From assembly GCF_945605565.1 (NCBI RefSeq), contig NZ_OX216966.1, positions 5,200,001 to 5,264,000 on the forward strand: a stretch of 64,000 bases of DNA. The letters run 5' to 3'. Below the pieces are notes generated by a model. It saw nothing but the letters and a program-made list of their open reading frames with translations, searched no databases and was not told where the DNA came from. Made by a program: the position numbers and the translations under genes. The DNA is from Paenibacillus dendritiformis. Its GTDB lineage: Bacteria > Bacillota > Bacilli > Paenibacillales > Paenibacillaceae. Positions 61,495 through 64,000 of the stretch are shown here, piece after piece; position 1 is the first letter of the stretch; every line of letters begins with the position of its first letter.

Positions 61495-61671
61495 GCGGGA
61501 TTCACAGCAGCTCTGCTCTCATTCGTCACCAGTCTTCCAACCACCAACTATCCTCATTGTAGAATGGTTTACATTAAATAGTTATTTTGTCATGTCATGT
61601 TTACAAAACAAGAGGGGGATGGTAAATTATAGGTAATATATCATTGATTATGGGGAGAAGGTGCTTATCGG

Positions 61672-62964
61672 ATGGCACAAATATTGTCCATTGGTGAATT
61701 AATACAATGTCACAGATACAATAGAGGCATGACATTAGCGCAATTGTCAGAGCTGACAGGCATACATAAAGGGACCATCTCCAAAATTGAAAACGGTGAC
61801 GTGAAAAGACCGGAATATAAGACCATCCGTCCGCTTGCAGATACATTGCAAATCCCGCTAGAGACGTTAGTCGAACTGCACATCACCGTGGATAAGAGGG
61901 CGGACACCCTCCTCTTCGTGTTGCAGGACGTGATTCAGCATTCGGGTACTGCCGATCTGGTGACCAAAGTAGGCAGAAAATTTTTGGAATCCCCTAGTGA
62001 CGATAGTCACGCCTTGGTGGAACGGCTTTATGACTTCGCGGCCCACGTAGAAAATAAGGAGATTCAATTCGCCCTATATCAACTCATTGTTGACTACTCT
62101 CGCGATCACGGCATTATGCCTTTTTTGGCAAGAGGTTTATTCCAGGTGTATCTTATCGAACGGGACGACTTCACCAGGCTCAGATCGGTTTACGAGAGCG
62201 GCAAGCATATCGTTCAGTACGCCCAATTTTTAACCAGCGAAGACAGAGTCACTTTGTATTACAAATTGGCGATTCACGCGTTCAATTTATTTCTGTACCA
62301 GCAAAGCATCGAGCTCGGCCTCCAAGTTCTTCGGGAAGCAGCTCCGGATAATTTATTCTACATATATACGCTTTGTATATTGCGTGATTCTTATTTTCGT
62401 ATTGGTAACTATGAAAAGTCGGAGTATTACTCAAGCCTCTATATACAATATGATTCTCCTCACATGAAAACTAACGCGGTGCTTATGCAAGCAGCACTCA
62501 ATACGAAAAAGGGAAAAACCGATCATGCTGTCACACAGCTCACATCCTTTCTTGAAACGTGTGATCAGGATGCAGCTCTTCTTGCAATCAATCAATTAAT
62601 GAAAATCTATTTACAGGATAACCGCCTGGAAGAAGCAGATCAATTGCTTGCTTACCCAATATGTCCCCAATCCATCAGCACGAACAATCCCAATATCATC
62701 TCTCAATTAGCCGAATATTATTATCATCGAGCGGAGTATTTTGGTGCCATTGGTGACCTTCACAACGGTATATCCGATTTTTTGGAGAGCGCGATGCATT
62801 TCTCCAGAATTAATGATACGGACATGGAGAAAGAATGCATGAACCAGATCGTGCGCTGCCACCTAAAGCAAAACTCTGATATGACCGTATCCACATTAGA
62901 AAAACTGAAAGAGTATTATGAACGCAGTGCAGCTAAAGATAATAAATTGGAGGGATTCATGTGA
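61672..62964 (+). CDS. HTH-TPR peptide-sensing regulator of the RRNPP type (NprR-like)
   Basis: A 430-residue cytosolic regulator. Residues about 9-65 form an XRE-type helix-turn-helix ('MTLAQLSELTGIHKGTISKI'), and residues about 75-425 are helical repeats of TPR type ('NLFLYQQSIELGLQVLREA', 'RIGNYEKSEYYSSLYI', 'QLAEYYYHRAEYFGAIGDL'). This order and length match NprR/PlcR/AimR receptors, which bind a re-imported secreted peptide through the TPR part and change DNA binding. GGGGAGAAGG precedes the ATG. Its stop overlaps a 36-codon gene for a signal-peptide-bearing product, the expected pheromone. A near-identical regulator starts at 63463. Confidence 0.88.
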   Translation: MAQILSIGELIQCHRYNRGMTLAQLSELTGIHKGTISKIENGDVKRPEYKTIRPLADTLQIPLETLVELHITVDKRADTLLFVLQDVIQHSGTADLVTKVGRKFLESPSDDSHALVERLYDFAAHVENKEIQFALYQLIVDYSRDHGIMPFLARGLFQVYLIERDDFTRLRSVYESGKHIVQYAQFLTSEDRVTLYYKLAIHAFNLFLYQQSIELGLQVLREAAPDNLFYIYTLCILRDSYFRIGNYEKSEYYSSLYIQYDSPHMKTNAVLMQAALNTKKGKTDHAVTQLTSFLETCDQDAALLAINQLMKIYLQDNRLEEADQLLAYPICPQSISTNNPNIISQLAEYYYHRAEYFGAIGDLHNGISDFLESAMHFSRINDTDMEKECMNQIVRCHLKQNSDMTVSTLEKLKEYYERSAAKDNKLEGFM

Positions 62965-63071
62965 AGCGTTTCATCTGTAAGCTTTTCAGCGGACTGGTTT
63001 GCTCTGTTATCATCGGGGTGACAACATTTGCATCAGCTATGGGGAATGACTCTAGCGTTATACCGTGGTAA
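62961..63071 (+). CDS. Secreted propeptide, probable pheromone of the adjacent regulator
   Basis: A 36-codon gene starting at GTG 62961, overlapping the regulator stop (ATGTGA), with GGAGGG 6 bases upstream. The product has a basic start (MKRFICKLF), a hydrophobic core and a signal peptidase-like site ending 'TTFASA', leaving 'MGNDSSVIPW'. Basic N-terminus, export signal and a short variable C-terminal peptide directly after an HTH-TPR gene are what PapR, NprX, Phr and AimP precursors look like. The active form is probably a 5-7 residue C-terminal piece such as SVIPW or DSSVIPW; that is inference. A terminator follows at once, so regulator and peptide form a two-gene unit. Confidence 0.8.
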   Translation: MKRFICKLFSGLVCSVIIGVTTFASAMGNDSSVIPW

Positions 63072-63096
63072 GAGTACCTGATTGGTACTCTTTTTT
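63072..63096 (+). terminator. Terminator of the regulator-peptide unit
   Basis: GAGTACC (63072-63078) pairs with GGTACTC (63084-63090), then TTTTTT, 1 base after the peptide stop codon. Confidence 0.9.
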
Positions 63097-63203
63097 CGTT
63101 ATGTTTCCTTAAATTCAATTTATTGGGATTCGTTCGACACATTGTATACTCATAGTTAAGAAAGCGCCCCATTATCCAAGCTGATGTGAGGTGACGAACT
63201 ATT

Positions 63204-63395
63204 GTGTACAGTGATGATATTCTCCATAAAATTCACGGACTTCGACAGAAATTGATCTGCATCGCCAATCAAAAAGGGAAATTTACCGACGATGAAGTCG
63301 TTCAAGTTAGCCAACAGCTAGATATTTATATATTAGAGTTTCAAAAGTACTATAAAAAACAACAACAAAGAGACATAGTGAAAAAGAGCAGCTAG
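63204..63395 (+). CDS. Spo0E-like aspartyl-phosphate phosphatase
   Basis: A 63-residue two-helix protein of the Spo0E family, which removes phosphate from Spo0A~P and so delays sporulation. The signature 'SQQLDIYILEF' (SQELD motif) is present, preceded by 'IHGLRQKLICIANQKGKFTD' as first helix and turn. The GTG start follows GAGGTGA by 9 bases; TTGGGA-16-TATACT at 63123-63150 is a probable promoter. It lies between two peptide-sensing regulators, which suggests that peptide signalling controls entry into sporulation here. Confidence 0.85.
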   Translation: MYSDDILHKIHGLRQKLICIANQKGKFTDDEVVQVSQQLDIYILEFQKYYKKQQQRDIVKKSS

Positions 63396-63462
63396 GTTCA
63401 GTAGAATAGCTTGGTAAGTAAAAAAGCGATATCATTGAATATGGGGAGAAGGTGCTTAACGG

Positions 63463-64000
63463 ATGGCACAACTACTGTCCATTGGGGAGTTAATACAATG
63501 TTACAGACGCAATAGAGGCATGACATTATCGCAATTGTCAGAGTTGACAGGGATAAATAAAGAAACCCTATCCAAAATTGAAAACGGTGACGTGAAAAGA
63601 CCGGAATATAAGACCATCCATCCGCTTGCAGACACCTTGCAAATCCCGCTAGAGACGTTGGTCGATCTGCACATCACCAGGGACAAGAGGGCGGACACCC
63701 TTCTCTTCGTGTTGCAGGACGTGATTCAGCATTCGGGTACTGCCGAGCTGGTAACTAAAGTTGGCAGAAAATTTTTAGAATCCCCTCGTGACGATAGTCA
63801 CGCCTTGGTGGAACGGCTTTATGACTTCGCGGGCCACGTTGAAAATAAGGAGATTCAATTCGCTCTATATCAACTCATTGTTGACTACTCTCGCGATCAC
63901 GGCATTATGCCTTTTTTGGCAAGAGGTTTATTCCAGGTGTATCTTATCGAGAGGGACGACTTCACCAAGCTCAGATCCGTTTACGATAGCGGCAAGCATA
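63463..64000 (+). CDS. Second HTH-TPR regulator, partial (cut by window end)
   Basis: The first 179 codons of a paralogue of the regulator at 61672, with no stop before the window ends. The HTH ('MTLSQLSELTGINKETLSKI') and first TPR helices are nearly identical to the first copy, and the similarity includes the upstream 'ATGGGGAGAAGGTGCTTA' ribosome-site region. Differences are mostly conservative, for example H14Y, Y16R and E69D in the first 70 residues. Whether it too is followed by a peptide gene cannot be seen. Confidence 0.88.
   Translation, partial: MAQLLSIGELIQCYRRNRGMTLSQLSELTGINKETLSKIENGDVKRPEYKTIHPLADTLQIPLETLVDLHITRDKRADTLLFVLQDVIQHSGTAELVTKVGRKFLESPRDDSHALVERLYDFAGHVENKEIQFALYQLIVDYSRDHGIMPFLARGLFQVYLIERDDFTKLRSVYDSGKH

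Follow-up and report, generated by a model that had tools for sequence, protein, structure and literature searches.

A peptide-sensing receptor of the RRNPP type and a Spo0E-like phosphatase domain are joined in a single protein in Paenibacillus dendritiformis, next to a complete receptor–propeptide–spo0E unit. The locus lies at the end of a window of 64,000 nucleotides (G000:5200001-5264000 of a 6.72 Mb single-contig genome), the sequence having been prolonged by 10 kb beyond the window end; positions are those of the window unless a genome or locus handle precedes them. An unfused receptor with helix-turn-helix (HTH) and tetratricopeptide repeat (TPR) domains (R1), its propeptide gene and a stand-alone spo0E gene are followed by two further receptor copies, R2 and R3, both of which end in a Spo0E domain. 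We give an even chance to the reading that the locus combines a quorum-sensing unit with a one-piece, peptide-gated phosphatase of phosphorylated Spo0A (Spo0A~P), convergent with Rap and NprR, the gating being the part that we infer. The modules and their gene order are known; the domain architecture is new and has a testable consequence.

R2 is an HTH-TPR-Spo0E fusion of 457 amino acids, encoded in one intact frame on the plus strand (63463..64836) which crosses the window edge at 64000 and ends at G000:5264836. Its Spo0E domain (residues 400-442, window 64660-64788) lies within the last ~55 residues, matches PF09388 (E 1.2e-10) with 41.6 bits against a cut-off of 23 and retains, as SQQLD, the SxxxD signature of Spo0E-like phosphatases (DiCandia et al., 2024; PMC11115286). 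The domain thus combines the PF09388 hairpin with the motif that together define a Spo0E-like aspartyl phosphatase. R3 starts at 64990 and also ends in a Spo0E domain but is interrupted: an insert of 96 bp at 65274-65369 (L009:9275-9370), which contains a stop and whose length preserves the frame, parts the HTH from the remainder. The insert is 99-100% identical to ten other sites of the genome, at one of which (L146) it lies directly 3' of a 395-aa transposase-like gene, which we take to be IS110-like; L147 has 702 bases in common with L146 there, and R3 contains only the 96-bp piece of this repeated, transposase-linked sequence.

The original prediction had suggested two pheromone channels or cross-talk and proposed a look for a second propeptide past base 64000. 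In the prolonged sequence, a propeptide was sought after both R2 and R3 and none was found; where it would sit after the receptor, R2 and likewise R3 carry the fused Spo0E domain. Two complete channels, each with its own receptor and propeptide, are hence very improbable and are refuted here by the sequence past 64000, although the channel of R1 is complete. The same contrast holds more widely. A propeptide was assigned by rule to 39 of 50 unfused receptors and to none of 12 fused ones, three of which are N-terminally interrupted (Fisher p 6e-7, ignoring relatedness). The count of 39 is approximate, as an off-frame open reading frame (ORF) was picked first at L065, L079, L088 and L011, where a better propeptide ORF is also present, and L066 is doubtful. 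Receptor homologues without a propeptide, which had been named in advance as evidence against peptide sensing, therefore give a mixed picture, split between unfused and fused genes.

The fusion is not confined to this locus. A search for relatives of R2 gave 99 proteins, 16 of which include PF09388 (P0001-P0011, P0015, P0028, P0033, P0069, P0071), the nearest named relatives of the fused proteins being from Paenibacillus thiaminolyticus and P. dendritiformis. A second fused locus of the genome (G000:603068-604372, L045) encodes a protein 34-37% identical to R2, in which a TAA separates the HTH, so that a 369-aa protein of TPR and Spo0E parts with a Rap-like outline would remain; relatives of 442-443 aa with an HTH exist, and PF09388 is present in 26 of 44 relatives of this protein. 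When the fused tail was compared with 394 genomes of the family and the reading frames were checked in the DNA, at least 17 fused loci were confirmed, all in the genus of the window and in 8 of the 19 genomes analysed from it (G000, G001, G006, G008, G014, G016, G017, G018). No fusion outside the genus was found among the matches listed, which reach down to ~E 1e-9, so that weaker ones could be missed. Rows from G201 and G274, of other genera, seemed to span the junction; the genes proved to be ordinary receptors. Searched alone against all proteins, the fused tail matched 6 of 11 candidates, all fused Paenibacillus-type proteins, and with only 11 candidates the silence elsewhere says little. 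No fusion was found in the viral contigs searched, and an Rfam search gave no match at the gathering threshold.

Several lines of evidence suggest that the fusion arose more than once. In a quick tree of 134 receptors, computed with the Spo0E part excluded, the 37 fused rows (one, P0013, with a cut-short Spo0E part) are scattered, and a single fused clade is rejected (p-AU 1.9e-42). Four junction types, recurring at a common position in the protein, occur in different receptor clades: type A in R2 and its relatives, type B in P. popilliae, P. alvei and others, type C in the second locus of this genome, P. apiarius, P. alvei and others, and type D in one P. apiarius gene. The ten state changes on the tree were rejected as a count of fusions, since common junction sequences reduce them to four types and gene copies can swap their ends, which may put a fused end onto another receptor; at L054/L097, a type A junction stands on a different receptor clade. 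Four independent events are likely, and at least three are the safe minimum because a single fusion with a small deletion afterwards could account for types A and B.

The origin of the fused domain can be traced in part. Its best stand-alone match is the spo0E of its own receptor group in 4 of 4 type A genes (78-83%) and in 4 of 5 type C genes (50-63%); the fifth type C gene and the single type D gene have theirs outside their own group. The R2 domain shares 68% identity with the adjoining spo0E and 82% with a relative's spo0E. The simplest history, judging from these comparisons, would be a repeated deletion from the last helices of the receptor to the start of the downstream spo0E, which would remove the terminal receptor helices, the propeptide gene and the region preceding spo0E within one unit, leaving the fusion. 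Five genomes have a fused gene after a complete receptor–propeptide–spo0E unit; it is of type A in this genome, in G001 and in G006, whereas G016 and G017 (the latter with a gap of 970 bases) have type C. No unfused receptor was present in the flanking DNA examined of four other fused loci (L045, L095, L097, L139). The gap between R2 and R3 carries a remnant of the first bases of the next gene after R3, presumably a cyclase-family enzyme, and this remnant marks the duplicated unit. Apparent first bases of the cyclase-like gene are kept in gaps before fused genes at L009:8838-8990, L101:3984-4136 and L096:3639-3790, and it looks as if these remnants show how the tandem unit was copied. A further fragment ~52 kb upstream of the window start (G000:5147508-5147876, L033), 80% identical to R2 residues 1-123 and with an internal TAG, is the remnant of another receptor copy.

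Alternatively, the fused proteins could be chance products of deletion within tandem arrays which act through Spo0E dosage or not at all, blind to any peptide and with the TPR domain as a decaying leftover. This explanation, which we consider rather improbable, draws on the absence of adjacent propeptides reported above, on the lower HTH_3 scores of some type C members and on the state of the loci, 7 of 17 being interrupted or partial, a proportion which also weighs against a peptide-gated phosphatase. Conversely, the frames are intact at the ten other loci, in seven genomes, the junctions recur at one protein position, and the TPR domain is still constrained. Type A fusions are under purifying selection, with pooled ratios of nonsynonymous to synonymous substitution (dN/dS; five intact genes, few sites, simple method) of 0.137 for the HTH, 0.180 for the TPR and 0.078 for the Spo0E domain, which is the most constrained part. 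In type C (four genes), the values are 0.215 for the HTH and 0.124 for the TPR domain, synonymous sites of the Spo0E part being saturated. All but two of the fused entries (52 of 54; 52 distinct sequences) retain the SxxxD motif, one of the exceptions being cut short and the other having T for S.

The fate of the HTH bears on another explanation, in which the Spo0E domain would be a built-in cofactor mainly modulating DNA binding by the receptor itself, akin to a tethered Spo0E-RstA contact, and would not act chiefly on Spo0A. In Clostridioides difficile, both Spo0A and RstA are recovered in Spo0E pull-downs, a contact with the C-terminal TPR domain of RstA is predicted, and RstA targets are affected (DiCandia et al., 2024; PMC11115286). 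The HTH is moreover recognised in types A, B, D and part of C. However, HTH_3 scores reach 21-33 bits in 7 of 9 type C fusions (51 and 54 in the other two) compared to 40-53 in 9 of 9 unfused relatives, the low scores belonging mostly to one P. alvei-type subclade; owing to this drop, some type C proteins, in which SxxxD persists, may be losing their DNA binding. Together with the second fused locus of the genome, whose HTH is severed by a stop, these data make a built-in cofactor unlikely.

If the fused proteins are indeed peptide-gated phosphatases, the following mechanism can be proposed. The Spo0E hairpin would dephosphorylate Spo0A~P, and a peptide taken back into the cell would bind in the TPR groove and, through the joining helix, alter the pose or the accessibility of the hairpin, thereby relieving the sporulation block; we infer the gating, its sign and the identity of the peptide. 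The fused protein would thus achieve post-translationally, in one chain, what the receptor–peptide pair does through transcription of spo0E. The fused protein P0001, 75% identical to R1, is modelled as an NprR-like TPR superhelix whose fold matches include NprR, Rap and AimR along with unrelated TPR proteins, NprR being the top-placed bacterial receptor. In the AlphaFold prediction, the last TPR helix continues into Spo0E, and in the models of P0001 and P0128 the Spo0E part consists of two helices and a joining loop. A sequence search of the PDB matched known Spo0E structures weakly (2c0s, E 0.03; 2bzb, E 0.48) and gave no match for the TPR part.

A more specific proposal is that fused receptors are listening-only, one-piece sporulation brakes, that is, pheromone-gated Spo0A~P phosphatases which themselves produce no signal, are adapted to the peptide made by other strains and represent an architecture reached at least three times. 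We regard this proposal as quite unlikely as a whole. In 3 of 4 type A fusions with a named neighbour peptide (R3, G006 and G001), the half of the TPR domain on the peptide side most resembles a receptor whose pherotype differs from that neighbour peptide, R2 giving a tie; in G001, this half is 79% identical to GHHPW receptors and 57% to the GGIFPW neighbour. As a modest control, 15 of 33 unfused receptors agree with their nearest unfused receptor, by the same measure, in the four residues at the tail end. This mismatch, from a small sample of sequences, hints at listening to other strains. The unfused relatives of R1 share its layout, with propeptide tails such as GHHPW, GGIFPW and GSIHPW. 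Tails often end in PW, DPGW or GW (unfused units in L009, L049, L050, L057-L060, L067, L068, L073, L074, L076-L078 and others), and the common C-terminal tryptophan might be read by a shared groove.

The unit preceding R2 was found as originally predicted, with all ORFs and the hairpin in the order receptor, propeptide, terminator, spo0E and receptor, all on the plus strand. R1 (61672..62964) has 430 aa, within the 250-500 aa of RRNPP receptors with a TPR fold (the fold being taken from the P0001 model), with an HTH_3 match (E 3.8e-10) and a match of residues 5-423 to phrog_32768 (E 3e-75). Its stop codon is overlapped by the GTG start of the propeptide gene (62961..63071), which encodes 36 aa with a basic N-terminus, a hydrophobic stretch and the tail DSSVIPW (SVIPW at its end); this small adjacent propeptide was judged to be secreted by a hydropathy rule. 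An intrinsic terminator (63070..63092; 9-pair stem, T tail) occupies the gap to spo0E (63204..63395), which encodes a stand-alone phosphatase of 63 aa (PF09388 E 1.1e-12; motif SQQLD). The HTH of R1, its own propeptide, the downstream spo0E and the NprR-like model of P0001 support the proposal of RRNPP-type quorum sensing around Spo0E. The near identity claimed for the HTH and upstream regions of R1 and R2 stands for the former, with 87% identity across the first 75 alignment columns (77% over 426 aa). Upstream, the likeness is limited to 34 bases (61638..61671, plus strand; 32/34 identical to 63429-63462), the further 40 bases being identical at only 10 of 40 positions; the shared stretch is the leader and ribosome-binding site (RBS), not a promoter.

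Transcription of the locus can be approached through its signals. A terminator between propeptide and spo0E is present at 8 of 8 loci examined, with stem sequences differing between types A and C, and a scan of the gaps before fused genes revealed none in 6 of 6. Since no terminator separates spo0E and R2, the promoter of spo0E may also serve R2, which may belong to the spo0E transcription unit. A weak promoter-like match before R2 (63378-63407) runs counter to this arrangement and makes a promoter of its own possible. The candidate site 5' of spo0E (TTGGGA-16-TATACT, 63123..63150, plus strand) is a consensus match only, and such matches are no commoner in the region than by chance (17 versus 12.9 in shuffles, sd 3.8). 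In P. polymyxa, AloR13 turns on the promoter of the downstream spo0E and its peptide turns this promoter off (Voichek et al., 2020; PMC7425212); if R1 acted like AloR13, the peptide would therefore lower spo0E and R2 together.

The gene order itself, which the original prediction had not recognised, has been published: receptor–peptide–spo0E is known for six P. polymyxa Alo systems, of which Alo13 controls spo0E (Voichek et al., 2020; PMC7425212), and RRNPP systems adjoining spo0E have been reported in phages (Bernard et al., 2023; PMC10075063). The order found here is therefore ordinary. While AloR-AloP-Spo0E shares it, together with an HTH-TPR receptor and the same bacterial family, the main text of PMC7425212 contains no word starting with 'fus'. 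R1 was rejected as an AloR: the AloR13 gene, located through the published cloning primer and confirmed by its SHGRGG peptide tail, matches R1 at 26% over 117 of 430 residues, near the N-terminus, short of the AloR rule of at least 30% identity over 80% mutual coverage (PMC10075063). Elsewhere in the genome, G000:4433132-4435044 (L052) holds a true AloR relative (39% to AloR13) with a spo0E-like gene nearby.

A relative of R1 over the full length is the plasmid receptor BRLA_RS22615 of Brevibacillus (28% over 426 aa, E 1e-65). The plasmid pBRLA33 of Brevibacillus laterosporus LMG 15441 encodes one AloR (45% to AloR13) beside this R1-like receptor and a small downstream gene, and a plasmid of this strain has been described as carrying one AloR and one novel 'cluster 8' system (PMC10075063). 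BRLA_RS22615 would thus be the cluster 8 receptor by elimination, and R1, by the same elimination, a probable member of this predicted RRNPP cluster or its nearest kin. The Brevibacillus phages SecTim467 and Sundance also carry unfused R1-like receptors with a spo0E gene. In SecTim467 (L144), the array consists of an R1-like receptor, a small ORF (tail DPGY), spo0E and an AloR-like receptor (38% to AloR13), so that two RRNPP subfamilies adjoin as on pBRLA33.

Other systems share part of this logic. Rap is a TPR receptor tying peptide sensing to the sporulation phosphorelay. NprR does likewise, reaching the phosphorelay at Spo0F through its own surface (PMC4970707). Unlike NprR and Rap, whose own surface acts on Spo0F, the fusions carry a separate Spo0E domain, which is directed to Spo0A in relatives. 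Arbitrium (AimR-AimP-aimX) likewise comprises a receptor, a propeptide and a controlled gene (PMC7425212), its output being the lysogeny switch of Bacillus phages. The fusions have one chain where Spo0E and RstA, which also work together, are two proteins. To our knowledge, AimR has no phosphatase domain. No published description of an RRNPP receptor-Spo0E fusion was found in the open-access literature, and existing filters tend to miss such proteins: the 'strict' mode of RRNPP_detector, from which cluster 8 derives, needs the adjacent propeptide that fused receptors lack (Bernard et al., 2023; PMC10075063), and the Spo0E ortholog survey was limited to proteins of 40-100 aa, which excludes fusions (DiCandia et al., 2024; PMC11115286).

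A recurrent natural fusion of this kind is independent evidence for a partnership between Spo0E and RRNPP regulators. If the peptide-gated reading holds, a quorum-sensing receptor would have merged repeatedly into one protein with the phosphatase under the control of its unit. The authors of the C. difficile study raised the possibility that Spo0E is also bound by further RRNPP proteins (PMC11115286), and the fused proteins would provide a single-chain handle on this question, raised in 2024, of Spo0E-RRNPP cooperation outside C. difficile and of its gating by pheromones. Should the fused receptors also prove to be listening-only, they would be natural evidence that Spo0E and RRNPP receptors form one machine.
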